The notes under the pieces were generated by a model. The model was not told the origin of the DNA, made no database searches, and was given only the letters and a program-made list of their open reading frames with translations. A program made the position numbers and the translations under genes. This document shows positions 8,560 through 43,984 of a stretch of 64,000 bases of DNA, piece after piece; within the stretch, counting starts at the first letter, position 1; every line of letters starts with the position of its first letter. The stretch covers positions 1 through 64,000 of IMG/VR virus record IMGVR_UViG_3300032304_000763; one strand, written 5' to 3'. Source of the stretch: a virus.

Positions 8560-11500
8560 ATGGCAGAGTTTAAATTAGGTAGAATTAGATTTGTATGGAA
8601 AGGTGAGTGGATCTCAGGGACTTCTTACCTTAAAGACGACGTAGTACGTGTAAACGGTCGTGTTTATATCTGCGTTATAGGTCATACAGCAGATCCAGAT
8701 TTTTATGTAGATGCGGATAATTTTCCAGCACGGTGGAATCAGGCCAGTGATGGCCAAACGTGGCGCGGAGATTGGACTCCAGACACACTATATTATGAAA
8801 ACGACATAGTCAAATACGGCGGACAACTATATATTTGTTTAGTTGGACATACTTCAAATGCTGATGTAAGTGTTGGTCTAGAAGTCGACTTAGATCTTGG
8901 TGATAGTACACAGACCAAGTGGGATCAATTTGCTGAAGGATTTGATTGGAAAGGCGATTGGACAACCAACACTAGATACAAATTAAACGACATTGTCAAA
9001 TACGGTGGTAATACGTATTTGTGTAATCTGGGACACACTTCAGCACCAACCGCGGCTATGGGATTAGAAGGTCTTGATAGATTAACACCGGGACAGACAG
9101 AAGATCTTAATAAATGGGATCAATTCTCAGAAGCATTTGATTGGAAAGGTGACTGGACTCCAGGAACTCGATATAAAATCAATGACGTAGTATCTTTTGG
9201 TGGCACATCGTATGTGTGTAACGAAGGACATCCTGCGGCAGCAACATTTGTTCTTGGCCTAGAAGCTGACCAAGGCAAGTGGGATTATTTCAATCAAGGC
9301 ATTGAATATCTTGGTTTATGGGATGCCGAAGACCAGAATTATAAAGTAAACGATCTTGTTAAAAACGGTAACGGCATTTACATCTGTTTACAGAAACATT
9401 CATCATCATTGTCTAGAACATTTGAGCAAGATGAAGACTCCGGTTACTGGGGAGAATTTTTAGAAGGTATTCAGTTTGAAGATAGTTGGAACAGTTCAAC
9501 AATTTATCAACCTGGTGATATTATTACCTATGGTGGTTATGCGTATGTGGCTACAACAAATCATAGCAATATTAAACCTACCCAGGCCGTAACCGGTTCG
9601 CAGAACTGGGATCTGTTTACCACAGCATTTAAATTCCAACAAAACTGGAATTTATCTGCCAATTATAGAGTAGGCGATGTTGTAAGATTAAGCGGCTTTA
9701 CTTATGTTGCCATTGCTGATAATACTAATCAAAAGCCTCCAAACTTAACATACTGGGAACAATTAAATCCTGGTATTCGTTGGCTAGGAGCATGGGCAAA
9801 CGGCTATGGATATGTGTTAGGTGATGCAGTTCGTTATGGACCTAATAGTTATGTCTGCGTAAATGCTCATACATCAGCATCTGCTACAAATAGACCAGAC
9901 ATTGATGTTACTGGAACTGTTTGGAACTTGTTAGCCAACGGCCAAGAATCATCTGTGTTAACCACACAAGGTGACCTTGTCTACTACGGCGGTGCTGGTC
10001 CAACAAGATTACCAATCGGAGCAGACGGCCAAGTATTAGTCGTTGGCAATGCCCAAGCACCCGAGTGGAGATATTGGGGTGAAGTTGATCAGTTATATTA
10101 TGTGAGTTTAGATGGAGTTGATCAAACAGCACCCGCCTACGGTGTTACTCTAGACAAGCCTTGGAGAACAGTACGATACGCTGCTGAGCAGATTGAAAAA
10201 GGTACTAGAAATCCTCAAGCAGCACGTCTACTGGAAATTAATAGACAGTTTGTACAGCGGGAAACAGTACAGTGGATCAACTATCAGATTGCCAACAATA
10301 TCTCACCGTTCGTATCTAGTTTTTCTTACGATACAACCAAGTGTGAACGAGATGTTGGACTAATCATCGATGCTATCCTATGGGATATACGTCATGGTGG
10401 CAATGCTAGATCTAGAAAAGCAGCAGTTGAGTATGTAACTAATGCTTCTACATTTTATGGATTAGGTCAAAAAGAAGAAACTGTAGCAGCAATCAACTAC
10501 GCAATAACCACATTAGTTAACACTGCGGTATTGTTAAACGCTGCCCCAGCTACAAACTATCAAGTTACTAACAGTGTTCCTGTCAATGACAGAATTTTAC
10601 AGATTATTGACACAGATTTTGTAGCAGAAACTCTGTCATTCGCAGAGATAGCTAGTTTAAAATCATTGATCACAGTGGCGATCAGTGGAGGCACACTAGG
10701 CAGCGTTGGAGCAGAAGTAAAACCACAGAGAACAATTCTAGTTAAAACAGGAGTATTCTTTGAAACTCTTCCAATTATTGTGCCAGTGGACACAGCAGTA
10801 GTAGGTGATGAACTACGTTCAACAAATATTAGACCAGCAGCGTCACAAGTTGACATTACCGATGTTCCAAAAAGTTTAGATGCCCTATCACGAATTAGTG
10901 CTATTATCAGCAATATTGTACAAGGCACTACTGTAACAAAAACGACAACGGGTTCAAACCCTAATACGTTGTCTCAGAGTCAAACTAAACCATTTGCCAC
11001 TGCTACTCAGGGAACACTGTTAACTGGGCTAATGACTAACGCAACAGCATACATTAACTTTTACGTTAATAGCACTGGATCTGCTCCAGCAATGACAGGG
11101 TCAAATGCTGCTGCTAGTTTGTATAATGTATATGCTGCTATTAGACAGCTTGAACTTAATAGAGAATTTATTGTAGCAGAAGTTCAAGCATATATCGCAT
11201 TGACATATTCCGGCTATGCTGTTCTCACAGAATATGTCAATGAATACATTGATGCGATGAAATATGATTTAGCCTACACTGGAAATTATAGAACACTAAC
11301 AGCCGCAAAGTGGTATGTAAGAAGTGTAAATGGGTCTATCGCAGAAAACATGTTCTTGGTTAGAAACGCAACAGGCGTTAGAAATCTAACTGTTCAAGGA
11401 TTAACTGGTACACTAGGAGCTCCTAATGCCTACGGTACTCGTAGACCAACAGCAGGTGCCTACACTTCTTTAGATCCGGGATGGGGTCCAAATGACGAAG

Positions 11501-14500
11501 CTGTTTGGATTACCACAAGATCATGCTATGTACAAAACGTTACTACATTTGGTACTGCCTGTATTGGATGTAAAATTGACGGTGATCTACATGCTGGCGG
11601 CAATAAATCTATCGTTAGCAACGACTTTACACAGGTGCTGTCTGATGGTATTGGAGTATGGTGTACTAACCTAGGTAGAACAGAATTAGTTTCAGTATTC
11701 GGATACTATGGACACATCGGTTACCTAGCAGAAAATGGTGGTAAGATTCGAGCTACTAACGGTAACAGTTCCTACGGTGAATTTGGTTGCGTGGCTGAAG
11801 GTGTTGATGCTACTGAAACTCCAATTACTGGTGTTGTTAATAATAGATATGAAGAAGCAATATCATCAAAATCTTTAACTAGCGGACAACAGGTCTATCG
11901 AGTTGAATACTCAAACGCTGGAAATAATTATACATCCGCCGCATTTACATTCAACGGCCCAGGTACTACATTTACCACAGTGGGAGATGAAACCCGCGAC
12001 GGTGGTATATTTGAACTTAGACTATTAGATGTTGACGATAGTTCAGGGCAGTTCGGCGGACTAGATTACCTAAGTTCTGAAAACGTAGCTCAGGGCGGTT
12101 CAACAACAGCAATTACTATTGCTGCCACAGACGACCAAACTAGTTCTGCGTATGTTGGCATGCGAATTTATATCCAATCTGGTGTAGGTGTCGGACAGTA
12201 CGGTTATATTAATACCTATAATGCTGGTAGCAAAATTGCCACAGTACTTAAAGAATCAACAGGTACATCCGGATGGGATCATGTAATTCCAGGTACTACT
12301 ATCGTAGCACCAGATCCATCATCATTGTATATCATTGAACCAAGAGTTAATGTTCCAGCACCGACCGAAGCAACATTGAGTGTTACTGGTGGGCCTGCTG
12401 GCGGATGTAGAGATGCGGTATATGCCAATGTTAGAGAAACATTTATCAACATAGCTGCTACTGGTGGTTCAGGTACCGGTGCTACATTCAACGTGACTAG
12501 AAATGGGTTGACTTATACAGTTACCCTAAATCAAGCTGGTCAAGACTACGAAAATAATGACCTATTGACAATTGCTGGCACATCAGTTGGTGGAGCATCA
12601 CCAGCCAATAATATCAGCATCCGAGTTGAAACTGTAGATTACACAGCAGGTATTATTGTAGGTGAAATATTAACAATATCACATGAAGGTCGAGGCCGCG
12701 GAGGCAATTTTGTATTAGTTCCTGCTGCCTCAAGCAATTTAGCATACTACTCAACAAACGGCACAGCTTGGTCATCATCGACATTACCATCATCTGCTGC
12801 TTGGACTGCTGTAGGTGCCGGAACTATCAGTAACGTAGCCTATGTTGTAGCATTAGGTAGCACAGCAACATCAACTGCGGCATACAGTACTAATGGCGGA
12901 GCATCATGGGCAGTATCAGCATTGCCACAAATTAGTGCTGTTACATCTGTGGCATTTGGTGGCAATAGGTTTGTTGCTGTGCGTTCAGATTCTAATAACT
13001 CGTTGGTGTCCACAGGCGGCACAGTTTGGGCCAATGGTGCTAACATACTACCTGGATCAACTAACTGGCAAAGTATAACCTATGGCAAAGGAAGATTCTT
13101 TGCTGTTGCTGCTGGCGGTACTGCCAGTGCTTACAGCTTAGATGGTATTTCATGGACTGCTGCCGCATTACCTAGTTCTGCTACATGGAACAGCATTGCG
13201 TTTGGTAACAACGTGTTTGTTGCTTTATCAAATGAAGGCAACTTGGCAATCAGCAATAACGGCACATCGTGGACAGCGGTAGTTGGTACTATTAATGCTG
13301 ATGAAGTTGGTTATGGACAAGGTTCATTTATAGCAACTAGCCATGCTTCATCGACCGCCTACTACAGATCACAAGACGGCCTAACATGGACACAGGGCAC
13401 AGCAACCTTTACTACCACAGGACGACCAGTATTTGGCAATCCAAATGAAACACCGGTATGGATAATTCCGCGTACTACTTCAGCTCAGGCAGCGGTGAGT
13501 ATTGGATCTAGAGCTTATGTTAGAGCTCGAGTTGCTGATACTAAGATTGTAGAATTTAGAGTAGTTGAACCAGGTAGCGGTTATATTGCTGGTTCACCGC
13601 CAAGCATTACTATTACTGATCCTAACAACACCTACGAAGTACCGTTTACTGTTAGAGTAGGCAACGGAGTGTTGGCAAATCCAACATTTATTGATCGTGG
13701 TGCTGATTGGGAAGTTGCCACTGCTACAGTATCGGGCGATGGCTATGCTGACCTATTCCAAGACGGTAGTTTGGTCGATGTTAAAGGAATTTACACAGTG
13801 CCGATTCCGGGCTCAAACGTTGAATTTACCAGCATTCCTGGTAAGTTCTATAAACTAGTAAACGTTACCCGATTGTTAGGTACTGGCCCGTATACTGCTC
13901 GTTTACAAGTTAGTCCACCAATTGAAATATCTGAAACGGCTCCGCATGAAGATCCGTTTGAAATTAGAATTAGATATTCACAGGTTCGATTAACAGGACA
14001 TGACTTCTTAGACATTGGTACTGGAAACTTTACCAATACAAACTATCCAGGATTACCGTTGTCAGATCCAATACCAGATAATGAAACTGTAGAAAGCAAC
14101 GGCGGTCGAGTATTCTATACAAGTACCGACCAAGACGGTAACTTTAGAGTTGGCGGGTTGTTTACCGTTGAACAAAGTACTGGTACCGCAACATTAAATG
14201 CTGATGCGTTTAACATTGCAGGTCTACAAGAGCTCAGTTTAGGCTCAGTTGAATTAGGCACAGGGGGTGCTACAGTTACTGAATTTTCAACAGATCCATT
14301 CTTTACACAGGATTCAGATTCAGTTATACCTACTCAAAGAGCTATTAAAGCGTACATATCTTCACAAATTGGCTCGGGCTCGAGCACATTGAACGTAAAT
14401 ACTCTTACAGCAGGTCAGATATTTGTAGCTAATGACTACATTACAACCACTACAGGAGGGCAAATCAATGTCCTTGCTAAGATGAATTTCATCGGTGGTA

Positions 14501-14544
14501 TTAATGGAATCCCAGTGGCTATGAACTTATTTTTACATAGTTAA
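8560..14544 (+). CDS. Second giant tail fibre, paralogue of the preceding gene (1994 aa)
   Basis: The architecture matches the gene at 2803-8517. CBM5/12-like W...D-V-V-[KR]-Y-G-G repeats fill residues 1-470. A YYVSLDGVD segment starts near 512 and leads to a helix-like core with YGTRRPTAGAY and ENGGKIRATNGNSSYG, nearly identical to the paralogue. BNR-like repeats lie at about 1390-1630, and the C-terminal VRLTGHDFLDIGTGNF and FYTSTDQDGNFRVGG motifs are present. Unlike its paralogue it carries an extra helical insert near residues 590-700 with the motif KCERDVGLIIDAI...GGN, which is also repeated in the 2697-aa protein at 23952. A late promoter core lies upstream. It probably forms a second receptor-binding fibre or a hetero-fibre with the first. 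Confidence 0.8.
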   Translation: MAEFKLGRIRFVWKGEWISGTSYLKDDVVRVNGRVYICVIGHTADPDFYVDADNFPARWNQASDGQTWRGDWTPDTLYYENDIVKYGGQLYICLVGHTSNADVSVGLEVDLDLGDSTQTKWDQFAEGFDWKGDWTTNTRYKLNDIVKYGGNTYLCNLGHTSAPTAAMGLEGLDRLTPGQTEDLNKWDQFSEAFDWKGDWTPGTRYKINDVVSFGGTSYVCNEGHPAAATFVLGLEADQGKWDYFNQGIEYLGLWDAEDQNYKVNDLVKNGNGIYICLQKHSSSLSRTFEQDEDSGYWGEFLEGIQFEDSWNSSTIYQPGDIITYGGYAYVATTNHSNIKPTQAVTGSQNWDLFTTAFKFQQNWNLSANYRVGDVVRLSGFTYVAIADNTNQKPPNLTYWEQLNPGIRWLGAWANGYGYVLGDAVRYGPNSYVCVNAHTSASATNRPDIDVTGTVWNLLANGQESSVLTTQGDLVYYGGAGPTRLPIGADGQVLVVGNAQAPEWRYWGEVDQLYYVSLDGVDQTAPAYGVTLDKPWRTVRYAAEQIEKGTRNPQAARLLEINRQFVQRETVQWINYQIANNISPFVSSFSYDTTKCERDVGLIIDAILWDIRHGGNARSRKAAVEYVTNASTFYGLGQKEETVAAINYAITTLVNTAVLLNAAPATNYQVTNSVPVNDRILQIIDTDFVAETLSFAEIASLKSLITVAISGGTLGSVGAEVKPQRTILVKTGVFFETLPIIVPVDTAVVGDELRSTNIRPAASQVDITDVPKSLDALSRISAIISNIVQGTTVTKTTTGSNPNTLSQSQTKPFATATQGTLLTGLMTNATAYINFYVNSTGSAPAMTGSNAAASLYNVYAAIRQLELNREFIVAEVQAYIALTYSGYAVLTEYVNEYIDAMKYDLAYTGNYRTLTAAKWYVRSVNGSIAENMFLVRNATGVRNLTVQGLTGTLGAPNAYGTRRPTAGAYTSLDPGWGPNDEAVWITTRSCYVQNVTTFGTACIGCKIDGDLHAGGNKSIVSNDFTQVLSDGIGVWCTNLGRTELVSVFGYYGHIGYLAENGGKIRATNGNSSYGEFGCVAEGVDATETPITGVVNNRYEEAISSKSLTSGQQVYRVEYSNAGNNYTSAAFTFNGPGTTFTTVGDETRDGGIFELRLLDVDDSSGQFGGLDYLSSENVAQGGSTTAITIAATDDQTSSAYVGMRIYIQSGVGVGQYGYINTYNAGSKIATVLKESTGTSGWDHVIPGTTIVAPDPSSLYIIEPRVNVPAPTEATLSVTGGPAGGCRDAVYANVRETFINIAATGGSGTGATFNVTRNGLTYTVTLNQAGQDYENNDLLTIAGTSVGGASPANNISIRVETVDYTAGIIVGEILTISHEGRGRGGNFVLVPAASSNLAYYSTNGTAWSSSTLPSSAAWTAVGAGTISNVAYVVALGSTATSTAAYSTNGGASWAVSALPQISAVTSVAFGGNRFVAVRSDSNNSLVSTGGTVWANGANILPGSTNWQSITYGKGRFFAVAAGGTASAYSLDGISWTAAALPSSATWNSIAFGNNVFVALSNEGNLAISNNGTSWTAVVGTINADEVGYGQGSFIATSHASSTAYYRSQDGLTWTQGTATFTTTGRPVFGNPNETPVWIIPRTTSAQAAVSIGSRAYVRARVADTKIVEFRVVEPGSGYIAGSPPSITITDPNNTYEVPFTVRVGNGVLANPTFIDRGADWEVATATVSGDGYADLFQDGSLVDVKGIYTVPIPGSNVEFTSIPGKFYKLVNVTRLLGTGPYTARLQVSPPIEISETAPHEDPFEIRIRYSQVRLTGHDFLDIGTGNFTNTNYPGLPLSDPIPDNETVESNGGRVFYTSTDQDGNFRVGGLFTVEQSTGTATLNADAFNIAGLQELSLGSVELGTGGATVTEFSTDPFFTQDSDSVIPTQRAIKAYISSQIGSGSSTLNVNTLTAGQIFVANDYITTTTGGQINVLAKMNFIGGINGIPVAMNLFLHS

Positions 14545-14556
14545 CGGAGAAATTAA

Positions 14557-14877
14557 ATGGCAACAGGTAGATTAGGAGCAAGCGATCTAGCACAGGCTAC
14601 AAATACATCGGTTTACACCGTACCATCGGATACTTTTTCGGTGGTTACGTTGTCAATTTGTAATAGAAACAATCAAGCATGTTCTATTAGAGTAGCTATC
14701 TCAGCAGCTGCAACACCCACAGCAGCTGAGTGGATCGAATTTGACACAGAAGTATTGGGTAAGGGCGTTCTAGAACGTACAGGTATCGTTATGGATGCTG
14801 GTAGACTATTAGTAGTGTATTCCAGTGCCGCAAACGTCAGTGCCGTAGCGTTTGGCATAGAAACGCCTACAGCATAA
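14557..14877 (+). CDS. Small beta-rich virion-associated protein
   Basis: This 106-residue protein follows the giant fibre by 12 bases with the Shine-Dalgarno CGGAGA. It consists of short beta strands (VYTVPSDTFSVVTLSICN, then SIRVAISAA) with a LEYT-poor, Gly-rich C-terminus. Length and strand order resemble the protein at 2092-2421, and both follow a large fibre, so a shared accessory role such as tip or connector is likely. No catalytic motif is seen. I cannot name a family. Confidence 0.5.
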   Translation: MATGRLGASDLAQATNTSVYTVPSDTFSVVTLSICNRNNQACSIRVAISAAATPTAAEWIEFDTEVLGKGVLERTGIVMDAGRLLVVYSSAANVSAVAFGIETPTA

Positions 14878-14900: not shown

Positions 14901-15233
14901 ATGGGAAGATATATCACAACAACTGGCACAGCAAATAACGTTATTCGCGAAGTTTCTACTGCGTTCAACGCTTCAGTCAATGATCGAATTTTAGCTAATA
15001 GTACATCAGCAGCTTTTACTATTACATTGCCAAATGCTTCTACACTTTTACTCAATGACACTATTCAGATCATTGATATCGGTGGAGTAGCAGCTACCAA
15101 CAATATTACGATTGGTCGAAATGGGGCTAAAATTCAAAACATTAGCGACGATTTAACCATCGACGTTAACGGTTCGATTATTACTTTGATTTATAGCGGA
15201 GCAACATACGGCTGGGTCGTAGCATCTGCTTAA
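14901..15233 (+). CDS. Small fibre-like beta protein
   Basis: This 110-residue protein has its own late promoter and a strong ribosome site (AGGGGAA). The pattern FTITLPNAS..LLNDTIQIID and a C-terminal GSIITLIYSGATYGWVV match short beta modules found at the ends of phage fibre and tail-spike proteins. There are no Cys residues and no catalytic motif. It lies directly before the Cys-rich triplet and may be a fibre accessory or chaperone-like tip. The fold is inferred from strand pattern only. Confidence 0.5.
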   Translation: MGRYITTTGTANNVIREVSTAFNASVNDRILANSTSAAFTITLPNASTLLLNDTIQIIDIGGVAATNNITIGRNGAKIQNISDDLTIDVNGSIITLIYSGATYGWVVASA

Positions 15234-15254: not shown

Positions 15255-16223
15255 ATGCCAACATCATTTAAAAACCTGGTAAAGATCAAGGGTGACGGAA
15301 TATACGCTACTGAAGAACATTTAGAGCGTGGCCGAATCCATGTGTTTACGCCAGGTAACAACTATACCAACTACGGTATATGCTGGCGGGCACCTGCCAA
15401 GGGTACCGCAGTTATAGAAATTTGGGGTGCTGGCGGAAGTGGTGCTCGTATGTGCTGCTGCGGCGGCGGACTTCCTGGTAACGCAGGAGCGTATTCAAAG
15501 AAAACTGTTCAGGTAAACTCGGGATGTTTCATCTGTGGTTCAGTGGGATTTAGCTGCGGTAACGCAGACGCAATATGTTTTAGAGGCTGTTCAGATCCAA
15601 CCGGAGTATGTTGGACTGGAAATTGCGGAGCATCGGGTTGCTTGTGTGCTCAAGGTGGAGCAGGTGGTAGAAGTTTTTGTACAACAGGCACTTCGTTATA
15701 TTGCTGTTTTGCCGCCAACGGCTACTGTGCTCGCGGTCCGTACAATGATAACTGCGGCACAATCTGTAACTACTTTGGTGGTATTTGGATTGCCTGTGCC
15801 TACGGTGGCGATATTAATCGCTGTGGCGGATTCTCGTGTACGGCATTCCTAGGATGTCAAGGTCCGTGTATTTGCTCTACTACATTTCACGTAGCAACAC
15901 CTCCGGGATATGTTTCTAAATGCGGCGGAGTTACTATTTTTGGTAATGAAAATAATAATGAATTTTCAAATTGGTCAGGTCAGGGTGCTCACCAACATCA
16001 ATCAGCACTAAACGCACAATCTCGTCAACCGACACACGGTATTCCTTGGTCCTACTGCTGGGGTTTTGGTGGTGGTTGCGGCTGTTACGAAAACGAAGGC
16101 TGTTATACAGGTGTAGGCCCCGGATATCCAGGTACTCCACCATTCCCATGCGGTGATGTTAGAGACCATGGAAGACGAGGTGGCCACGGTGCTATCCGTA
16201 TTAGATTTATAGAGGGACAATAA
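15255..16223 (+). CDS. Gly/Cys-rich putative adhesin, copy 1
   Basis: This 322-residue protein contains about 31 Cys by my count, which is exceptional for a phage protein. The N-terminal 40 residues (MPTSFKNL...) are charged. They are followed by a strand and glycine motif IEIWGAGGSGAR and then a CCCGGG stretch. Cys is spread through the centre as CGN, CFRGC, CWTG, CAQGG and CCF motifs. The C-terminus is GGHGAIRIRFI. The WGAGGSG and terminal strand are the hallmarks of glycine-rich phage tail domains, and T-even gp38 adhesins use glycine-rich motifs in a comparable way. It is the first of three tandem paralogues. The Cys residues could form disulfides or bind metal. Adhesin function is inferred. 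Confidence 0.6.
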   Translation: MPTSFKNLVKIKGDGIYATEEHLERGRIHVFTPGNNYTNYGICWRAPAKGTAVIEIWGAGGSGARMCCCGGGLPGNAGAYSKKTVQVNSGCFICGSVGFSCGNADAICFRGCSDPTGVCWTGNCGASGCLCAQGGAGGRSFCTTGTSLYCCFAANGYCARGPYNDNCGTICNYFGGIWIACAYGGDINRCGGFSCTAFLGCQGPCICSTTFHVATPPGYVSKCGGVTIFGNENNNEFSNWSGQGAHQHQSALNAQSRQPTHGIPWSYCWGFGGGCGCYENEGCYTGVGPGYPGTPPFPCGDVRDHGRRGGHGAIRIRFIEGQ

Positions 16224-16224
16224 T

Positions 16225-17220
16225 ATGCCTACATCATTTAAAGGTCTTGTCCAAGCAAAACAACCGTTTATTGCCTTTGAAGAAGAAAATTTAGAGCAAG
16301 GTAGAATTTGGGCTTACACCCACGGCAATGTCCGTACAAAAATGTGTGGAGAAGTTTGCTGGATAGCACCTGCCAACGGCGTTGCTACAATTGAAATTTG
16401 GGGTGCTGGTGGTAGTGGTGCTCGTATGTGCTGTTGCGGTGGCGGCATTCCAGGAAACCCTGGTGCGTATTCTAGAAGAACCATTTGCGTAGCTACTGGA
16501 TGTTTGGTTACCGGATCAATTGGTTTTAGCTGCGGTAATGCTGACGGTCTTTGTTTTAGAGGTTGCTCAGAAGCAACAGGAGTTTGTTGGAGATCAACAA
16601 CTTCAAACGGCTGTATGTGTGCTCAAGGTGGTCGTGGAGGCACAGCATATTGCTCAACAGGCACATCAATGTGGTGCTGTTTCCAAGCAGGCAGCTTCTG
16701 CGGCACAGGTCCGTTTAATGCAAACTGCGGTATTATTTGTAATTATGGCGGCGGTACTGCCAGCTGTTGTGCTGATGCGTTTGGCGGAGATGTAAACGCA
16801 AGAGGCGGATTTAGTCGTGCTTCATTCTTCGGCTGTACACCAAGTTGTCCGTGTTCGACTATCTATCACATAGCAACACCTCCAGGATACTATTCGGACT
16901 GCGGTGGTGAAATTACCTATACTAATGAAGGCGACAGCGGACACTCTAACTGGAGCGGGATGGCTCTAAACGGATTCCTTTACGGTTTAAACGTAGCAGG
17001 ACGTCAACCAGGACGTGGAGTTGACGGTGCTCATAGATGTTGGACCGGTGGTAGAACTTGCGGATGTTACGAAGGTAACGGATGTATTCCGTTTGTTCCG
17101 CCTGGATTCCCCGGACCACCTCCGTTTCCTTGCCCAGATGTGCGTGATGTTGGTTATCGTGGCGGTCATGGTGCTATCCGTATCCGATTCATTCAAGATG
17201 GTACAGTCCAAGAACTATAA
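16225..17220 (+). CDS. Gly/Cys-rich putative adhesin, copy 2
   Basis: This 331-residue paralogue of the preceding gene starts one base after that gene's stop. It has about 30 Cys, the same WGAGGSGARMCCCGGG core and the same GGHGAIRIRF terminus, followed by eight extra residues. The region around residues 180-200 (TASCCADAFGGDVNARGGF) and the segment after the conserved CGGE differ most from copy 1, which suggests that those loops are variable. The role is inferred to be receptor binding or fibre decoration. No secretion signal or enzyme motif is visible. Confidence 0.6.
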   Translation: MPTSFKGLVQAKQPFIAFEEENLEQGRIWAYTHGNVRTKMCGEVCWIAPANGVATIEIWGAGGSGARMCCCGGGIPGNPGAYSRRTICVATGCLVTGSIGFSCGNADGLCFRGCSEATGVCWRSTTSNGCMCAQGGRGGTAYCSTGTSMWCCFQAGSFCGTGPFNANCGIICNYGGGTASCCADAFGGDVNARGGFSRASFFGCTPSCPCSTIYHIATPPGYYSDCGGEITYTNEGDSGHSNWSGMALNGFLYGLNVAGRQPGRGVDGAHRCWTGGRTCGCYEGNGCIPFVPPGFPGPPPFPCPDVRDVGYRGGHGAIRIRFIQDGTVQEL

Positions 17221-17232
17221 GAGAAAAATATA

Positions 17233-18201
17233 ATGCCTACATCGTTTCAAAATTTAATTAGATCTAGAGTTACTGGAAGGGTTGAAGAAAACCTAGAAAC
17301 TGGTAAGATCTATGTGTTTACTCCCGGTACAATGTACACAAACTTCTGTACTGGATTTTGTTGGAACCCACCAGGAACTGGCCGAGCAGTTATTGAAGTT
17401 TGGGGTGCTGGCGGTAGTGGTGGCCAGATGTGTTGCTGCGGTGGAGGTACGCCAGGCAACGCAGGAGCATACGCAAGACGCACTATCCAAGTAACTGCCA
17501 GCAACTTTGTTCGCGGAACAATTGGTAATAGTTGCGGAAACTCATCGACTTTATGTTTTAGAGGTTGCTCTGAGCCAACAGAAGTGTGTTGGACTTCCAG
17601 CGGTACACCATCAAACGGCTGTATATGTGCCCAAGGTGGAGCAGGCGGACGCGGCATGTGTTCAACAGGTACTTCGATGTTCTGTTGTTTTGTAAACCAA
17701 AGTCATTGCTTTACAGGCCCATTTAACGACAACTGCGGTATTATCTGTAACTACTTTCCAGGTATTTGGATTGCCTGTGCCTATGGCGGCGATGTTAACT
17801 GCTGCGGTCAATTTAGTTGTACAGTGTTCTTTGGCTGTCAACCGGCATGTCCGTGTTGTACTCAATTCCACGTGGCATCCCCAGCAGGATTTTATAGCTG
17901 CGGAGCTGGTAACGTAGCAGCATTTGGTGCTGAAGATGAAAATAGATACGGGCAATGGACAGGACAAACACAAATGGCCGAGACTAACGCATTCTCAGCA
18001 ATGCGTAGATCACCTACAGCAGGTATTCCGATGAACTACTGCTGGAGATCGGATAGAGCGTGTGGCTGTTATGAGATGCACGGATGTATGCACTATGCTA
18101 CTCCCGCAACCGGCGGCCACGCACCTACACCGTGTCCGGGTGTTAGAGATCACGCAGGCCGAGGCGGCTGGGGTGCTGTTAGAATTAGATTCTTTACATA
18201 A
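17233..18201 (+). CDS. Gly/Cys-rich putative adhesin, copy 3
   Basis: This 322-residue protein is the third member of the triplet, with about 31 Cys. It keeps IEVWGAGGSG, CCCGGG, CFRGCSEPT, CAQGGAGG, a CAYGGDV segment and the C-terminal GGWGAVRIRF. It differs from the other two in the first 30 residues and in the stretch following the VASPAGFYSC segment, which is more acidic. Copies 1 and 3 share the NYF.GIWIACAYGGD segment that copy 2 has lost. Role inferred as for its paralogues. Confidence 0.6.
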   Translation: MPTSFQNLIRSRVTGRVEENLETGKIYVFTPGTMYTNFCTGFCWNPPGTGRAVIEVWGAGGSGGQMCCCGGGTPGNAGAYARRTIQVTASNFVRGTIGNSCGNSSTLCFRGCSEPTEVCWTSSGTPSNGCICAQGGAGGRGMCSTGTSMFCCFVNQSHCFTGPFNDNCGIICNYFPGIWIACAYGGDVNCCGQFSCTVFFGCQPACPCCTQFHVASPAGFYSCGAGNVAAFGAEDENRYGQWTGQTQMAETNAFSAMRRSPTAGIPMNYCWRSDRACGCYEMHGCMHYATPATGGHAPTPCPGVRDHAGRGGWGAVRIRFFT

Positions 18202-18220: not shown

Positions 18221-18868
18221 ATGAGAAAAAATTTTACATTTTTATTACCAGACGAGCCGTATAAAAACACTACAGCTCTAAACAAGGTACAGAATGCTGT
18301 ATACACAGGTCCAAGATATTTGGCAATCTGTGTGATCGACGGCACCGGCGAAATCAAGTATATTGCTAGAAAAGGCGAATCTTTAGCAGAGATTAATTTT
18401 GAATTGCTAGTCGATGATGATCCAGCAACTACATTTTATTTGATTGATGCCAACGAGCATCCGGCTGCTTGTGCGTATTTGACACACTCCTATGAAACTG
18501 GACCTGTTGCTGATTACTCAACAGATTTAGTTGATGCCGACGGTAATGAGTGGAATTACACATATCATTATGATGACGGTACTGGAGCAATGGGACAATG
18601 CTACTTTGGGCAATCATTAAAATACATCAACAATCAGTTTGTTGGTCCAGAATATAGACTTCACGCTATTACCAAAGCAAGTATGATTGAAAATTATCTT
18701 CGAATCGCAACAATGATTGAACAGAGTCTATTAGCCAACGACTACGAGCCGGCAGATGCTGAAGCACTAACTGAGCACGTGGCATGGTTGCGTGATTTAG
18801 AAAGACGCTATGCCGGAATCGATCACTGGAAAATTCCATTCCCTAACGATTTACCAAATTATTATTAA
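18221..18868 (+). CDS. Conserved-looking hypothetical, possible adhesin assembly factor
   Basis: This 215-residue soluble protein has a late promoter and the ribosome site GAGGAAA. The N-terminal half is beta-rich (YLAICVIDGTGEIKYIARKGESL), the middle contains an acidic Tyr-rich stretch (NYTYHYDDGTGAMG), and the C-terminal third is helical and ends in a Pro/Tyr-rich tail. I do not recognise a family. It follows the Cys-rich triplet directly and, unlike it, has only two Cys. A chaperone or attachment protein for those products is a possible role based on position alone. Confidence 0.5.
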   Translation: MRKNFTFLLPDEPYKNTTALNKVQNAVYTGPRYLAICVIDGTGEIKYIARKGESLAEINFELLVDDDPATTFYLIDANEHPAACAYLTHSYETGPVADYSTDLVDADGNEWNYTYHYDDGTGAMGQCYFGQSLKYINNQFVGPEYRLHAITKASMIENYLRIATMIEQSLLANDYEPADAEALTEHVAWLRDLERRYAGIDHWKIPFPNDLPNYY

Positions 18869-18949: not shown

Positions 18950-19891
18950 ATGGAACAACGCTCTAGAGCATTTTTTTTAAACGGCGGTGCGGGCCGTATG
19001 ATTTCAGCAATACCCGCATTTGAAAAATATGAACAGGAATCCGGTGACAGGGATTTCATCATTATTTGCGAAGGCGGTACAGATGTTTTTAAAGGACATC
19101 CAACACTTGATGCCAGAACCTACGATGTTTGGCATAAAAATCTTTTTATTGAAAAACTCAAAGATCGAGACATTGTAAGTACCGAACCTTACAGAGTATG
19201 GGAATATTATAATCAACGATGTTCCATAGCACAGGCATTTGATATTGAAATCAATAAAAAAGGTATTAGACCTTTGCCAAAGCCTACATTAATTCTTAGT
19301 AAAGATGAATTATTAACAGGTCGTAAACTAATTTCTGATGTAAAAAAACAATTAAAGAAAAGTAAAATTGTTGTGTTCCAACCTTTCGGTAGAGGCATAC
19401 AGGTTGTCGACGATACGCCAGTTGATTCAACATCTCGTAGTATTGAATTCAAAGACGTCAAAGCCCTTATTAAAAAATTACAAGAAAAAGACTTTGGTGT
19501 AATTTTAATGAGTGAGTTTAAAATTGATTTTACAGATGAAAAATTCAAAGATGAAATTGCCATGCCTGAAAACGTATCTATGCGTCAGTGGGCAGCTATC
19601 ATCAAATACTGTGATCACTTTTTAGGATGTGACAGTTTAGGACAGCATTTAGCACACTGTTTAGACAAACCGGCTACTGTATTATTCGGGTCAACTTACC
19701 CAATTAATGTATCCTATCCAGAAAACAAGTTGTTTACTATCCTAGACATGGGCGAAGACACTAGAGAATATAGTCCTATCCGTATAACCCAAGACGAAAG
19801 AGTTGACAGAAAGCACGAAACAATTATGACAATGACTCCAGAAATTCACACATACATTGTAGACGCAGTTCAAGGAAAAAATAAAAAATGA
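18950..19891 (+). CDS. Heptosyltransferase-like glycosyltransferase (GT9 fold)
   Basis: This 313-residue protein has two Rossmann-like halves as in GT-B enzymes. The N-terminus reads FFLNGGAGRMISAIPAF, matching the acceptor-side loop of the GT9 ADP-heptose LPS heptosyltransferases (usual form G..GD.....). In the C-terminal half IVVFQPFGRG and, near residues 225-247, GCDSLGQHLAHCLDKPATVLFG match the nucleotide-sugar binding segment of GT9 (usual form D....HLAAAL..P.v.LFG). The following carbamoyltransferase overlaps it by four bases (ATGA), so the two are translationally coupled. A heptose pathway lies at 32-34.7 kb. The acceptor is unknown: virion protein and host glycan are both possible. 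Confidence 0.65.
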   Translation: MEQRSRAFFLNGGAGRMISAIPAFEKYEQESGDRDFIIICEGGTDVFKGHPTLDARTYDVWHKNLFIEKLKDRDIVSTEPYRVWEYYNQRCSIAQAFDIEINKKGIRPLPKPTLILSKDELLTGRKLISDVKKQLKKSKIVVFQPFGRGIQVVDDTPVDSTSRSIEFKDVKALIKKLQEKDFGVILMSEFKIDFTDEKFKDEIAMPENVSMRQWAAIIKYCDHFLGCDSLGQHLAHCLDKPATVLFGSTYPINVSYPENKLFTILDMGEDTREYSPIRITQDERVDRKHETIMTMTPEIHTYIVDAVQGKNKK

Positions 19892-21696
19892 CAGAACCTA
19901 AGATTAATTCAGGCTGGATAGCAGCCATAGCACGTGGACACAACGCAGGTGTGTGCCTTTTTAAAGACGGTGAAATTGTTTTTTCTATCGAAGAAGAAAG
20001 ACTGACTCGTCAAAAATATGACGGCGGACCTCTTGCTTCGATGGTAAAGATTTTAGAGTATACCGACAAGTTAGATTATCTTGTGGTAGCACATACGCAA
20101 AAGTTATCTGATACCGCAGGTAAAATTGACTACAGTGGCGATGATGTATATACAGGACTAGCACGAAAGTTAGGTCTTATCAGCCGCAAAGAAAATAATC
20201 ATAATCATCCGCAGGTTGTTGATTTAAGTTTTATGCATCACAAACTTCATGCGGCCTGTGCGTTTTATCGCAGCGGCTTTGATGACGCAGTGTCTTTGAT
20301 TGTTGATGGTGCTGGTACATTCATTCAGTTAATGTACGGCAATGAACCTTTATGGGTTTGGGAAGTTGAGTCGATTGTCGACTGTAGCTATCCTTCAAGT
20401 TTTAAAACATTGTATAAAAATTATGGTGCTCGTGAACCAATTGCTGGCACATACATGGATAAATGCCCTTCGGACCAATTTGGTGAAGCAGGCGAATTCC
20501 ATGAAGCATGGCTTTCGGATAGAGCGGGTATAGTGAAGACCTATGAGGCTGTCACCGAATATTGCGGTTTTTCATCTATCGAAGCAGGAAAGACTATGGG
20601 GTTATTCCCATACGGTACTCCAAACGATCAAATTCCTAGGCTGTTTGATTCCACTTCAAAGGTTCCGTTATCTAATAGAAACTTGATCGTTCCTGCCTAT
20701 CCATCCTCTTCTATTGTTAACTCAGCATTGTTTGATTACTTAGATGAGCTGCCAGAAGAAGGACAAGATCCAACAACACTTCAAAGCCGTAGAGATCTTG
20801 CCTACGCTTGTCAAACACAGACTCAAGAACAAGTTGTGCGTTTGATAAAGAAAGCAGTAGAAATCAGTGGTAAGAAAAATGTAGTGATCAGTGGCGGATA
20901 TGGTTTAAACTGTGTTGCCAACTACCATTACCTAGAAGCTCTAAAAGATCAAGGTATTAACATCTATGTAGAGCCTATTTCTAACGATGCTGGTACTGCT
21001 ATGGGTGCTGGACTAATGTTTTGGCATGCGTTATCTGACAGCAAAGAAAAACAAAAACTCGATACCTTGTATCTAGGACCCGAACATAGCTATACAGAAA
21101 AAGAAATCTTAGAAAAAGTCAGCTATGCCGGCGGCGAAGCAGTTGATGCCACTAATAAAGAAGTAGTAGAGTTGTTAAGAAAGAAAAACATTGTTACAAT
21201 TTTCCAAGGCCGTTCAGAAAACGGACCACGTGCCCTAGGAAATCGTTCAGTGTTATTTGATCCCACATTTGAAGACGGCAAAGATTTTGTAAACGCAGTT
21301 AAGCGTCGTGAATATTTCCGTCCATTTGCTGGCAGTATTTTACACGATTATGTACACGAGTGGTTTGATCTACGCGGTATGGACGAAACTCCGCACATGA
21401 TGTATGCGGTAAATTGTCAGCCGGGTATCGCTGAAAAAATCCCGTCAATTATTCACGTTGACGGCACTTGTCGTATTCAAACTGTCAAGCGTGAGCAAAA
21501 TCCTCACTACTACGATCTAATCAAAGAGTTCCATAGTCAAACTGGTATTCCTATTATTTTTAATACCAGCTTTAATTTAGGTGGCGATCCGTTAGTTGAA
21601 ACCCTAGACGATGCTATCGAAACCCTAGTTAAAAGTGATATTGAATATCTATTTTTACCCGAATACGGTAAATTAATAAAGATAGCAAATACCTAA
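19888..21696 (+). CDS. O-carbamoyltransferase (NodU/CmcH family)
   Basis: This 602-residue protein has the full length of the NodU/CmcH/TobZ family, which transfers a carbamoyl group from carbamoyl phosphate to a hydroxyl via carbamoyl-AMP. The N-terminal YrdC/Kae1-like domain shows GHNAGVCLFKDG (residues 17-28), EEERLTRQK, the metal-binding HHKLHAA (117-123) and VDGAGT. The C-terminal domain has GRSENGPRALGNRS (about 441-454), FRPFAGSIL, HVDGTCR and FNTSFN (559-564). All key motifs seem intact. Substrates in the family are sugars or antibiotics. With the preceding GT, a carbamoylated sugar on virion or envelope is a reasonable inference. A strong terminator follows. Confidence 0.85.
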   Translation: MTEPKINSGWIAAIARGHNAGVCLFKDGEIVFSIEEERLTRQKYDGGPLASMVKILEYTDKLDYLVVAHTQKLSDTAGKIDYSGDDVYTGLARKLGLISRKENNHNHPQVVDLSFMHHKLHAACAFYRSGFDDAVSLIVDGAGTFIQLMYGNEPLWVWEVESIVDCSYPSSFKTLYKNYGAREPIAGTYMDKCPSDQFGEAGEFHEAWLSDRAGIVKTYEAVTEYCGFSSIEAGKTMGLFPYGTPNDQIPRLFDSTSKVPLSNRNLIVPAYPSSSIVNSALFDYLDELPEEGQDPTTLQSRRDLAYACQTQTQEQVVRLIKKAVEISGKKNVVISGGYGLNCVANYHYLEALKDQGINIYVEPISNDAGTAMGAGLMFWHALSDSKEKQKLDTLYLGPEHSYTEKEILEKVSYAGGEAVDATNKEVVELLRKKNIVTIFQGRSENGPRALGNRSVLFDPTFEDGKDFVNAVKRREYFRPFAGSILHDYVHEWFDLRGMDETPHMMYAVNCQPGIAEKIPSIIHVDGTCRIQTVKREQNPHYYDLIKEFHSQTGIPIIFNTSFNLGGDPLVETLDDAIETLVKSDIEYLFLPEYGKLIKIANT

Positions 21697-21698
21697 TT

Positions 21699-21722
21699 AA
21701 AACCCCCATTACGGGGGTTTTT
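21699..21722 (+). terminator. Rho-independent terminator
   Basis: A nine-base stem AAAACCCCC / GGGGGTTTT with the five-base loop ATTAC is followed by T residues. It lies just after the carbamoyltransferase stop and closes the GT/carbamoyltransferase unit. Confidence 0.85.
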
Positions 21723-21740
21723 ACTTTCCGTTTAAATCAG

Positions 21741-21747
21741 TTAAATA
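21741..21747 (+). promoter_or_regulatory. T4-type late promoter core (TTAAATA)
   Basis: TTAAATA lies 21 bases before the ATG at 21769 and directly after a terminator. The leader contains the weak ribosome site GCGGA. Confidence 0.5.
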
Positions 21748-21768
21748 TATGATACAAAGAGCGGACCC

Positions 21769-23343
21769 ATGACAGATTTTACAAGATATTTTGCCCCGGG
21801 AGTTAAGAACACACTGTTCCTTAAGAACGGTGTAAATTTCTATAATAGAGGACCGTGGCGACAAGTATATGATGATACAGAAATAGATCGCTGGTATGTA
21901 GGCGATTTTACTGCCGCCCAGTATATTATTTCTGTAGAATATAACTCACAAAAGAAAGAAACAATGTCTGTGCTAGTAGTTGCTAGACCAGATCAAGCTA
22001 GTTATTCTATTTCTGGTCGAGCTTCTATTGACGACCCGTTGATTACTATTTCAGCAACAGTAAATGACAGCTATCTTAGTTTAAAATTATCACCAATAAT
22101 CCCAGCATACGCTGGGGTTCGTGTAATCTATTTTGCTCAATACTTTGCTACCTTAACTGATTTAGATAGACCAATTCCGTTATCATATCTAGTCCCACAA
22201 GATAGTATAGGCGATGGCAGCGGTGGCGGCAGTATACCTACACCCGGAGACGGAGGCAGCAGCGGAAATGCTGATCTTTCAGCAATTGATCGATCACTGA
22301 CACCAACAATAACTGGTACCTATGACGTTGGTATCTCTTTAAAAAGATTTAGAGATCTGTATCTTAAAAATACTATAAATCTTGACGGTGCTATTATTTC
22401 TAAAAATCTTAACGGCGGCATTGAATTACCAATAGGCAGTACTGTAGATGGAAATGGATTAGTATCGTTTGGAACTATATCAGTAGCAGGTGAGCCTGAT
22501 ATTGAAAGTATTTCATTAAATGATACATTGACATTGATTGCTGGTGCTGGAATGACCATAACGTCAAACCCATCAGCTAGAACAATTACATTAACTAGTT
22601 CTGGTGGAGGTGGAGATGGAGGTGCTACAGCAGCCAACGCTTTTGGAGTTATTAGTGTGTCTGGCCAATCAACTATTAGAGCCGACACAGCAGCCGATAC
22701 GTTGACATTTGTAGCAGGCGCCGGCATTTCTATTACAACAAATTCTACCAGCGATAGAATTACAATTACCAACACAGGAACCGGTGGTGGCGGTGGCGGC
22801 ACAAGTGGTACTGCTTCGGAAATTATTGTAACAGAGATATTAGAAGGTATATTTCCAATGGTCATTGCCGAAGGCACTGATCCATTAACCGGACAGAGTT
22901 TATATGCTAGTTCAGGTGTAACACTAGAGGTAGCTACTAGTACTCTTAATGTTACCGCAACAACAGCACGTTGGGCTGACTTGGCAGAAAAATATCTAGC
23001 AGATCAAGCCTACGAACCCGGAACAGTTTTAGAGTTTGGTGGCGATAAAGAAGTAACTATGGCCCAAGACGGGTCAAAAAGGATTGCTGGTATTGTATCT
23101 ACAGATCCAGCGTTTGTAATGAATAATGATCTCAGCGGCGACACTGTTATACGGTTAGCGTTACAGGGCAGAGTTCCTTGTAAAGTAAGAGGAAAAATTC
23201 GCAAGGGCGACATGTTAATCAGCGGCGGCAGCGGTTATGCGAGGCCGTCGAGTGACCCATCAATCGGAACGGTGATTGGTAAAGCATTAGAAAATTTTGA
23301 CGGCGTTGAAGGAATTATTGAAGTTGTTGTAGGCCGTCTGTGA
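21769..23343 (+). CDS. Tail fibre protein with C-terminal fibre-end domain
   Basis: This 524-residue protein has an N-terminal globular part (residues 1-145), a Gly/Ser linker (GDGSGGGS, near 150), then beta repeats with DTLTLIAGAGMTITSNP and a similar DTLTFVAGAGISITTNS, separated by poly-Gly. The C-terminal 130 residues contain ARWADLAEKYLAD, PGTVLEFGG, AGIVSTDPAFVMN, ALQGRVPCKVRG, KGDMLISGG and GKALEN. This ordered set is the recurrent C-terminal domain of many phage fibres and structural proteins. It is expressed from its own late promoter. It is probably a fibre, with the attachment partner unknown. Confidence 0.75.
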   Translation: MTDFTRYFAPGVKNTLFLKNGVNFYNRGPWRQVYDDTEIDRWYVGDFTAAQYIISVEYNSQKKETMSVLVVARPDQASYSISGRASIDDPLITISATVNDSYLSLKLSPIIPAYAGVRVIYFAQYFATLTDLDRPIPLSYLVPQDSIGDGSGGGSIPTPGDGGSSGNADLSAIDRSLTPTITGTYDVGISLKRFRDLYLKNTINLDGAIISKNLNGGIELPIGSTVDGNGLVSFGTISVAGEPDIESISLNDTLTLIAGAGMTITSNPSARTITLTSSGGGGDGGATAANAFGVISVSGQSTIRADTAADTLTFVAGAGISITTNSTSDRITITNTGTGGGGGGTSGTASEIIVTEILEGIFPMVIAEGTDPLTGQSLYASSGVTLEVATSTLNVTATTARWADLAEKYLADQAYEPGTVLEFGGDKEVTMAQDGSKRIAGIVSTDPAFVMNNDLSGDTVIRLALQGRVPCKVRGKIRKGDMLISGGSGYARPSSDPSIGTVIGKALENFDGVEGIIEVVVGRL

Positions 23344-23349
23344 CAACCA

Positions 23350-23356
23350 ATAAATA
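23350..23356 (+). promoter_or_regulatory. T4-type late promoter core (ATAAATA)
   Basis: ATAAATA lies 10 bases before the ATG at 23367, with AGG in the short leader. It is intermediate between the leaderless and leadered classes. Confidence 0.55.
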
Positions 23357-23366
23357 CTAGGTAAAA

Positions 23367-23942
23367 ATGACTGTACAACAAAAACAATTTAGATCAGAAT
23401 TTGGATTTAGAAGTCCAAAATTTTCAGTAGATGCTGACGGTAATCTAACGGCAGATACCTTAACCACTGCTAATGTAAACTCAACTACAGTTAGCATATC
23501 CGGTGCTACTGTTTTAGAATCTAATAGAATAACAGAAAACATTGTTAACAGTAGTTTAGAAACACTGGGAATATTAGAAAGTTTAACAGTCAACGGTGAT
23601 GTTTTACTAAGAAAAAATAATATTACTCGATTGTCGATAGTAAATGGCAGAGTAGTGATTAGCAGTTTAACAACAGGTGCTGTTGATAACGTAGATCTCG
23701 GACAGATTAGTCCAGGAAAGGTCAACACTTATCAATTAAATGTTGTAGAACGAAACGGAGTTAACGGGGAATTTGTAGCAAACGGAGCAAATATTTCGTT
23801 TGATGCAGCTACAATAGCAGGAACTGTAACTTATACAGATAATATATCAGTTAGTGTGCCACCTACATCGGGGGTACACTTAGCCCGTAAAGATTATGTT
23901 GACAATTCAGTGATTGCGTTCGCTGTGGCATTTGGAGCCTAA
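23367..23942 (+). CDS. Fibre-related protein
   Basis: This 191-residue protein has an N-terminal segment RSEFGFRSPKFSVDADGNLTAD like those that begin fibre beta regions in marine phages. It is followed by short repeating strands (NSTTVSISGATVLESNRI) comparable to the repeat fibre at the start of the window. The C-terminus is GVHLARKDYVDN, a motif common before a trimerisation end in phage fibres. It lies nine bases before the 2697-aa giant gene and may form its base or cap. Fibre role inferred from composition and position. Confidence 0.6.
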   Translation: MTVQQKQFRSEFGFRSPKFSVDADGNLTADTLTTANVNSTTVSISGATVLESNRITENIVNSSLETLGILESLTVNGDVLLRKNNITRLSIVNGRVVISSLTTGAVDNVDLGQISPGKVNTYQLNVVERNGVNGEFVANGANISFDAATIAGTVTYTDNISVSVPPTSGVHLARKDYVDNSVIAFAVAFGA

Positions 23943-23951
23943 GGATCAAAG

Positions 23952-26900
23952 ATGGCAAAGAAAAAGATAGACAATTATACATTTAGACCAGGAATTAGTT
24001 TTTTAGGGAATCTTTATCCCGACGAATGGCAGAGTTTTACTGATAACGTTCCGTTTATCAAATCAGAACTGACTGCGTATCTCAATTACAGAATTAGTGT
24101 TGATACCGAAGTAAACTTATACCCTAATGCTGTCCGCTTGCTACAGAACAACGTGGCATTTATACAAGAAGAAGCCACTGCTTGGATTCAAACACAAGTG
24201 GCTGGTAATTTTTCAGGCTTTGTAGGCTACACCTATGATGTAGCTAAATGTAAACGAGATATTGGCTATGTGCTAGATGCTTATCTACATGATTTACGCT
24301 ACGGTGGCAACGAAGAAACTAGAATTGTAGTTGGCAAATATTGGATCAATGACGAGCCACAAGTTGACGGAGATCGTACTCCGGAAGTTAAAACACACGA
24401 ATTTATACGAGATTTAATAACGGATTATATATTTCCTAGAGCAGCATATACTCCAATTCAAACGTCAGTAGTTCGATATACTATTGCTCCATCAGCAGAA
24501 ACTACAGCAGCAGCTCGCATTGATACATTGTCAGCGGTTGTGACTACGGTCATTGCTGGCGGACTAGATGTAATGCCTGCGATTGTTTATAAATCTGCTA
24601 CCTATGAAAATTATACATTTAATTCAGAAAAATGTCAGCGAGATTTAGGTTATGTGTTAACAGCTTACCTTCATGATTTACGCTATGGCGGCAATGAAGA
24701 AACGCTCTTTACTATTCAGAAATACTACGACAACGGTGTTCTTCAAGTTGACGGAAGCGGCCAAGCTGAAGTAGAAGGCCATACATTTATTAGAAATTTA
24801 ATCATTAACAACATCATGCAGAATGAACAGGGTGTTACACTATACCCCGAAGCTGTGAGATTGTTGACACTAAACAAAGCCTATCTTCAAAATGAAATAG
24901 CTGGGTGGATTGAAAATGAAGTGTTAGATGCTGTTAAATGTGAACGAGACATTGGGTATCTTATCGATGGAGCAAAATTTGATATTGCTCTTGGTACTAA
25001 CTACAATGCCCTCTTTCTTGGTCTAGCTGAATTTAATTCAGTAGACAATGATTTTTTTGTCATTGACACAATTAACAGAACTAAAACAGCCATTGCTGAA
25101 CTGGCCAATGTGGCAGCAAGTTCAGCAGCCGTGGCTAGAAACAACGCATTCTTTAATGAAGTAGTTGACATTGCCGAAGGCGGTCGAAGTGAAGCAGATG
25201 CTTTGGTATTGGTAGAACCATCTAATGCTACAGCTAGTCGAATAGCAGCAAAAAATCAATTAGTAGCTAATAAAAATTTCCTAGCAACAGAAGTTAATGC
25301 TTGGGTAGCTGCTCAATATCCTAATGCTGATCACGATCCTGTAAAGTGTGAACGAGATGTAAAATATGCCATAGATGCTCTCTGCTATGATATGCTGTAT
25401 GGCGGTAACTCGGCAACATATGATCAAGCTAGATTTTTCTTCTACAGTTTTGACAACGGCGCAACAGGAATTGATCCTACTCATAGACTACAAACAGTAG
25501 CAGCCTATGTACATTTAAAAACAGTCATTGGCCAAGTGCTACAGGGCCAATTTGTTACAAGAACAACAGGCAATACAGTAACACAAAATCTAACGTTTCC
25601 GGCTGCTTCACCGAGCGATACAACAATTTGTCAAGGCTTGGTTCAGTTAACTGCTGATGTAGTTGCTGCCACAAATCAAACACAAGCTAACAGTATATTA
25701 TCAGGATTTACTAGAACTGTCCCAAGTATAACATTTGCCACTGCTCCGTTACAAACAGCATTTGCCGCAATTACAACAAATAAAACTGCTGTAATAGATC
25801 AAGTGGTTGTATTCAAAGGTTATACCTACGACGAGGCTAAGTGTATTAGAGATTCCGGATATGTCATTGATGCGTTAATCTATGACTTGGAATATAATGG
25901 TAACGAAGAGTCGAGAAGAATTGCTCAAAAATATTATATTGACGGTGTGTTTCAAGTTGACGGATCAAGAATTCCAGAAATCGCAGCATATACATTCTTA
26001 CAAGAATTATTAACAACATACATCTTTCCAAGAGCAACTGCGGACTCATACCAACAGGTATATCCTCAAATTAAAACAGCACCTAACGCTGAAACTGGTT
26101 CGTACGCTCGAATCACAGAGTTAACTAATATTTTTATTAATTTCTTAAAAACTGGTCCTGCGGCATTGCCTGCGGTATCGGTAAGAACAGTTCCATATCA
26201 AACAGTTGAAGAACAAGTAGTTGATACAACTAAATCATACGATCCTGAAACTGGCGAAATAATTACCACATTGTCAAATAATCTTATTAATATTATTCAG
26301 CAAGGTGTAGGTAGTCTTCCAGTTAAAGAAAGTGCCGGATATGGATTAGTTAAATTTCAAGGTGCTATTAAGTTAGAAGATATTCTTTTAATTACTAACA
26401 CCAGCAAAAACGTTGTTATCTATAACTTCTCAACAAATACCGCAGGTGGCCAACTGATAGCGGAATTTGATGGCGATGATGAATTTGTAGCATTCAAACA
26501 AACCACTGACAGAGTAAATTTTTTAAGATTACATTTTGATACGTCATCAATGGACGAAACTGATGACTTACAAATATTTGTTGAAGGTGCTGAACTAAAA
26601 GTTAGACCTTATGACTTTGGTACAGATGCTATTGAGCGTCATAGAGTAGCGGCACCACAGTCAATGCTTGATGCTGACTTCGAATACGGATTACAGCCAA
26701 CTAAATGGCAGGCTATTGGTATTGCAAGAGGTTATCCTTCGATATACGAAGTACCGGGATCAGATTTTGAAGTTGCGTCGATTATCACAGACGCATCATT
26801 TCCAACTAACGGTGTTGGTGCTTCAATAATTACAGTGGTTACATCTGCCCCGCACGGGTTAGTTCCCGGCAATCCAATCACTGTAGCTGGATTAGACACT

Positions 26901-32045: not shown

Positions 32046-32049
32046 AAGG

Positions 32050-32077
32050 TTGACAAACAGGCTCAATGCTGTATAAT
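32050..32077 (+). promoter_or_regulatory. Consensus sigma70 promoter of the heptose operon
   Basis: TTGACA (32050-32055) and TATAAT (32072-32077) both match the bacterial consensus exactly, with a 16-base spacer. The predicted start of transcription, seven bases after the last T, is 32084. That is the A of the ATG of the first operon gene, so the message would be leaderless. Host RNA polymerase use, and therefore early expression, is inferred. Confidence 0.8.
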
Positions 32078-32083
32078 TACAGC

Positions 32084-39813: not shown

Positions 39814-39875
39814 AGAATTGGACCTTTTTCTTCCCTTTTCTGATGGTTTAAACGCTGTGTTTTTTGATCCTGCGA

Positions 39876-39882
39876 ATAAATA
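39876..39882 (+). promoter_or_regulatory. T4-type late promoter core for the sheath gene (ATAAATA)
   Basis: ATAAATA lies 34 bases before ATG 39917. The leader carries CAGGAGA at 39903-39909. This is the leadered class. Confidence 0.65.
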
Positions 39883-39916
39883 TTATACAAGGTTCAACCC
39901 ATCAGGAGATAACGGA

Positions 39917-43276: not shown

Positions 43277-43280
43277 CGCG

Positions 43281-43298: not shown

Positions 43299-43308
43299 TC
43301 AATAGAAG

Positions 43309-43315: not shown

Positions 43316-43338
43316 ACATTATCCGGAGCATAAAGAAT

Positions 43339-43968: not shown

Positions 43969-43984
43969 TCAACGATTAACATTT

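Follow-up and report, generated by a model that had tools for sequence, protein, structure and literature searches.

Tandem cysteine-rich genes encode predicted tail-fibre adhesins in aquatic phages

Pam3 gp24, a tail fibre protein, is a homotrimer that has been detected in virions, and Pam3 gp25 has been described as having a beta layout that turns helical towards its end (PMC9608196). The gp24 protein combines a long N-terminal helical shaft with a TNF-like stem and a glycine-rich loop domain, its gene is followed by a small companion gene, and it contains a single cysteine in 280 residues. The Gly_rich_2 domain (PF21722), known from syn9 gp38 and from the fibres of Sinorhizobium phage Phosso, belongs to cysteine-poor proteins in the cases inspected there (2 cysteines in 266 residues of syn9 gp38 and 2 in 3162 of a Phosso open reading frame). 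TNF-like plus glycine-rich (TG) domains are further found in the extracellular part of ALK and LTK, which are animal receptor kinases. A functional disulfide network has been reported for the virions of Agrobacterium phages Milano and 7-7-1 (PMC10811340, PMC12796354), in which the structural proteins are made in the cytoplasm, and this serves as a precedent for a cross-linked tip. However, cysteine makes up 2-2.6% of the structural proteins in these phages and is distributed among sheath, baseplate, and capsid. A search of the open literature yielded no account of a phage tail-tip protein in which about 10% of the residues are conserved cysteines.

Here, we describe genes for putative proteins of this kind from an aquatic jumbo phage, in a stretch of 64,000 nucleotides (hereafter, the window), which comprises positions 1 to 64,000 of a 71.5-kb virus contig (IMG/VR record IMGVR_UViG_3300032304_000763). 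The fibre cassette of the window and its flanking genes are arranged as follows.

8560..14544, + strand: giant tail fibre protein of 1994 aa, immediately 5' of the cassette; phrog_9851 (tail fiber protein), E 4.8e-204; four CBM_5/12 repeats
14557..14877, + strand: small fibre-locus protein, 106 aa; phrog_11338 (tail fiber protein), E 4.4e-10
14901..15233, + strand: small fibre-locus protein, 110 aa; partial likeness to the PHROGs tail families phrog_972 (tail fiber proximal subunit, E 5.9e-7) and phrog_9648 (tail protein, E 8e-8)
15255..16223, + strand: predicted cysteine-rich tail-tip adhesin, copy 1, 322 aa, 31 Cys; AlphaFold2 model; Pam3 fibre 7YPX, Z 15.7; phrog_4205, E 6.2e-9; clade c1
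16225..17220, + strand: predicted cysteine-rich tail-tip adhesin, copy 2, 331 aa, 30 Cys; 59% identity to copy 1; phrog_4205, E 9.6e-7; clade c2
17233..18201, + strand: predicted cysteine-rich tail-tip adhesin, copy 3, 322 aa, 31 Cys; 58% identity to copy 1; phrog_4205, E 6.8e-7; clade c3
18221..18868, + strand: 215-aa companion protein, candidate tip assembly chaperone; beta N-terminal part and helical C-terminal part; AlphaFold2 pLDDT 95.1

The initial annotation had noted three tandem reading frames of 322-331 residues with about 30 cysteines each at 15255-18201, and both the coordinates and the counts (31, 30, and 31) proved exact. Of the two motifs it listed, WGAGGSG is invariant in all three proteins, whereas the terminal GGHGAIRIRF occurs unaltered in copies 1 and 2 and takes the form GGWGAVRIRF in copy 3. 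Cysteine accounts for 9.1-9.6% of these putative tip proteins; a virion part made in the bacterial cytoplasm would very rarely be expected to contain some 30 conserved cysteines.

We consider that the three proteins are probably paralogous distal tail-fibre adhesins and that, as judged from structure prediction, they represent a new cysteine-rich variant, widespread in aquatic phages, of a known tail-fibre adhesin fold. The AlphaFold2 model of copy 1 (mean pLDDT 81.8, pTM 0.80) adopts a predicted TNF-like plus glycine-rich fold, and its best match in the PDB is the Pam3 tail fibre (7YPX/7YFW; VIA, Z 15.7/15.3, 194 aa aligned, rmsd 3.1), with scores far higher than those of unrelated entries. 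The matched portion of the Pam3 fibre is the part that recognises the receptor. Foldseek returned the same fibre with a probability of 1.00 (E 2.6e-6) and a modest TM of 0.44-0.55. The next fold matches were the Bxb1 tail tip (Z 12.1) and the glycine-rich domains of ALK/LTK (Z 7.7-9.6), the latter implying no functional link to the window proteins, while S-CAM3 and P-SSM2 proteins ranked highest among the predicted viral structures of BFVD, with syn9 Gp38 at rank 9. The S16-type gp38 adhesin with its polyglycine sandwich (6F45) was not among the fold matches listed. This predicted fold agrees with the earlier proposals of polyglycine-type packing and of a tail-tip role, while the knottin-like packing suggested alongside them is not seen in the predicted structure. 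A sequence search against solved structures gave no match, and hhalign detected no homology between a profile of 94 family members and the single gp24 sequence (prob 0.3), so the link to Pam3 is one of fold only and not of membership in the gp24 family.

Each window protein would be built like Pam3 gp24: an N-terminal segment, short when compared with the Pam3 shaft, would lead into a beta-sandwich stem of the TNF-like type and a lobe in which long loops are rich in glycine. The genes are also followed by a small companion gene, as in Pam3, and this companion and the giant tail fibre gene flank the three genes in an order conserved in cultured cyanophages, which argues for a position at the tail tip.

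All three copies match the profile of PHROG 4205, a family with no assigned function in PHROGs. The window proteins themselves have no match to Gly_rich_2, although the domain does occur among their relatives: at E <= 0.01 it is recognised in 4 of the 94 close relatives, and the curated cut-off of 24.3 bits is exceeded by the relative L083 (28.5 bits) and by the homologues in S-CAM1, S-SSM7, and Sf-FS3. Relatives are common among uncultured viruses, being encoded at 90 or more places in IMG/VR, on contigs that in some cases reach 364 kb. When the count is restricted to the 74 loci in which the cluster is not cut by the locus end, exactly three copies are present in 58, one in 14, and four in 2. 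When 148 members are placed on a tree, the genes group by their position in the cluster into clades c1, c2, and c3, with 8 label changes as compared with about 70 in shuffles. On these sequence grounds, the three genes are an old triplication maintained as distinct orthologues.

The existence of separate orthologues in fixed order makes a heterotrimer of one c1, one c2, and one c3 chain the most likely assembly, and we give this arrangement about an even chance. Such a tip, with about 90 cysteines, would be mounted on the fibre encoded upstream. It is also possible, and a credible minority reading, that the same adhesin fold is used differently and that the copies serve as alternatives to one another or are mounted separately, either as one homotrimer per fibre or as a repertoire. 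Pam3 gp24 is a single gene whose product is homotrimeric (PMC9608196), and the loci with one or four copies, together with the two copies of P-SSM2, indicate that three copies are not obligatory. However, most complete loci hold exactly three copies with strict orthology by position, and purifying selection is similarly strong on all of them, which fits obligatory partners better than a repertoire that can be swapped. In comparisons with close relatives, gene-wide dN/dS has a median of 0.04-0.06, and cysteine codons over the three copies vary synonymously only in 54 cases and change the amino acid in 2; the reading frames are therefore real genes. The same gene-wide values reveal no hypervariability among near relatives and give no support to the earlier idea that the loops vary for receptor binding.

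Cysteine richness sets the family apart from its surroundings. The 32 other long open reading frames of the window contain 0.80% cysteine, giving a binomial P of about 1.7e-23 for 31 in 322, and across the family cysteine reaches 9.6% when compared with 0.66% in the neighbouring genes of the same loci, so this richness is not a genome-wide bias. Conservation of the cysteine positions, which had been proposed as a check, holds in an alignment of 94 nonredundant members, where 22 cysteine columns are conserved at 90% or more and 9 at 99% or more; in an independent alignment of 93 representatives, cysteine is the most conserved residue type. In copy 1, residues 67-299 contain 30 of the 31 cysteines. 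This stretch is the loop-rich region of the model that runs from the first stem strands to the last, and it takes in neither the 42 N-terminal residues nor the C-terminal strand. The cysteines include clusters of the type CCC (67-69), CC (150-151), and CxC (129/131, 205/207, and 275/277). The highest counts, 46-48 cysteines, were seen in the first copies of a clade formed by loci L018, L019, and L020.

We lean slightly towards disulfides, rather than metal sites or free thiols, as the state of these cysteines in the predicted adhesins. Cysteine would partly take the place of glycine in the lobe, with thiol chemistry substituting in part for the main-chain hydrogen-bond lattice, and the host-binding loops would be held by disulfides that close after lysis, upon release into oxic water. 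The loops might alternatively be held by metal bound at the CCC, CC, and CxC clusters. Cysteine totals are odd as often as even: 48 proteins have an odd number and 46 an even one, and the corresponding count for triplets is 25 odd and 18 even. An intrachain disulfide is therefore not needed for every cysteine, and the reading in which every cysteine is cross-linked within its own chain is weakened, although the conserved core of 22 is itself even. A tree-aware test of paired cysteine gains and losses for disulfide partners yielded no significant pair, as there were too few independent changes. A search of the phages for the sulfhydryl oxidase Erv/Alr gave no match, nor did the control genomes, and thioredoxin (1 of 15 records) and glutaredoxin (7 of 15) are not specific partners.

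Because of these clusters, and because even totals are not favoured, metal is a serious rival, in which zinc, iron, or copper would load the tip and disulfides would be absent. The 22 invariant or nearly invariant cysteine positions are compatible with this, as is the reducing state of the cytoplasm at the time of synthesis. However, the window proteins match no metal-binding family in Pfam, and we rate a metal-loaded tip as less likely than not. A further proposal, that redox state or metal (iron/zinc) at the host surface gates binding by a heterotrimeric adhesin in which some 90 thiols per tip form a dense network holding the host-binding lobe, through disulfides closed on release or through bound metal, and that this is common in aquatic T4-like phages, is doubtful at present. 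It is improbable that cysteine acts as a mere small packing residue with no thiol chemistry. Glycine-rich lattices require small side chains, and the cysteines do sit in the loop-rich part of the model, but substitutes at the conserved columns are mostly Arg (42), Thr (31), Lys (17), and Tyr (17) and seldom Ala (7), Ser (5), or Gly (3), which makes a packing role unlikely, and the Pam3 fibre manages the same fold with its single cysteine. Finally, secreted or regulatory non-virion proteins lying in the tail region by chance are a highly improbable explanation: virion proteomics covering any family member was not found in the literature searched and PHROG 4205 lacks a function, but the fold matches a fibre detected in virions and the position beside a giant tail fibre gene is conserved in several phage lineages.

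Returning to the predicted tail-tip adhesins, the 215-aa companion lies directly 3' of the last cysteine-rich copy wherever a triplet locus extends far enough to show it, and its family has 81 matches in the fetched loci. Homology links it to SXBG_00223 of S-CAM1 (hhalign E 1.5e-15) and to the N-terminal part of PSSM2_305 of P-SSM2 (E 1e-5), both of which adjoin the cysteine-rich genes of those phages. The fold search returned no convincing PDB match and no chaperone match, Caudo_TAP matched only 3 of 52 family members weakly (best E 0.018), and Pam3 gp25 was matched neither by sequence nor in the fold search. The model of the companion is similar in layout to gp25, and a role as an assembly chaperone assisting the folding of the tip, which it may have, thus rests on gene order and this layout. 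Two tandem copies of the companion gene are present in some loci (L040, at 8993-10381, L044, L058, and L061). A second T4-like lineage, with a major head protein nearby, carries one cysteine-rich copy at L060 (5977-6954) and similar single-copy loci; in this type the gene adjoins a 1639-aa baseplate/fibre protein and the companion is absent.

Relatives in cultured phages were reached only via synteny and a divergent query, as tblastn with the window proteins against 50,697 phage records gave nothing useful and missed all of them. The window gene at 18950-19891, located 3' of the cassette, led to Synechococcus and Prochlorococcus phages with tandem cysteine-rich genes, three each in S-CAM1 (SXBG_00224-226), S-SSM7 (SSSM7_114-116), and Sf-FS3 (97-99) and two in P-SSM2 (PSSM2_304/306). 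All are annotated as hypothetical and contain about 8-12% cysteine (25-36 per protein). Their neighbours are a tail fibre gene and genes for a GT9-like protein and a carbamoyltransferase, in the same order as in the window, and the tail fiber gene holds the position of the window gene at 8560..14544. The 106-aa gene has a counterpart at the matching position in S-CAM1, P-SSM2, and locus L071, and the 110-aa protein has one of similar size and position in the same three (109, 91, and 110 aa, respectively). The S-CAM1 genes match PHROG 4205 at E of about 1e-95 to 1e-104, and the window-family profile matches two of the three S-CAM1 proteins (E 7.5e-12 and 4.8e-11); PHROG 4205 spans the cultured and window sets. 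The two sets are alike in cysteine richness, tandem layout, and genomic place, but their sequences have largely diverged.

As the same kind of gene occurs in cultured P-SSM2, S-SSM7, and S-CAM1, experiments can now address whether the proteins are in virions, whether they contain disulfides or metal, and whether they act in receptor recognition. Such work would reveal how a protein from a reducing cytoplasm employs many thiols outside the cell and would supply host-recognition candidates for abundant aquatic phages. The family is absent from S-CREM2, for which a virion proteome has been published (PMC10665884), and from S-TIM5 and S-PM2, and the main text of the S-SM1 proteome paper (PMC3037559) does not mention these clusters.

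The terminase and tail sheath of this virus have their closest counterparts in jumbo T4-like phages, for example Sinorhizobium phage Phosso, Agrobacterium phage Atu_ph07, and Pseudomonas phage PA5oct. The core virion genes at 39818-51151 are likewise nearest to Sinorhizobium, Agrobacterium, and Pseudomonas jumbo phages, whereas the fibre and sugar cassette at 8560-34742 is shared with marine cyanophages, and exchange of modules is therefore possible. The sugar-related genes at 18950-34742 encode a GT9-like protein, a Nol-like carbamoyltransferase, a heptose adenyltransferase-like protein, a PfkB kinase, a cupin, and an epimerase. This set also lies downstream of the cysteine-rich genes in P-SSM2, S-CAM1, and S-SSM7. 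In these phages, the cupin carries the label cysteine dioxygenase, possibly a misannotation. As a test for a cyanobacterial host, psbA was sought in 19 related records of up to 364 kb and found in none, so that such a host for the window phage and its relatives is not supported by the sequences at hand. One relative (L100, PAOW01000006.1) is encoded by a contig of 15 kb assigned to a Euryarchaeota MAG; viral contigs are common in MAGs, and this one is probably viral and was binned with the archaeal sequences.

In S-SSM7, Sf-FS3, and syn9, genes for 2OG-Fe(II) oxygenases or prolyl-4-hydroxylase-like proteins and for tryptophan halogenases adjoin glycine-rich tip genes (L088, 8311-8970 and 12043-12510; L090, 8305-8937; L097, 4466-6001), and these enzymes might modify the tip proteins. 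The 392-aa glycine-rich gp39 of syn9 (L097, 2650-3828) resembles a pair of almost identical domains with an out-of-frame stretch between them, possibly reflecting a frameshift or a sequencing error.
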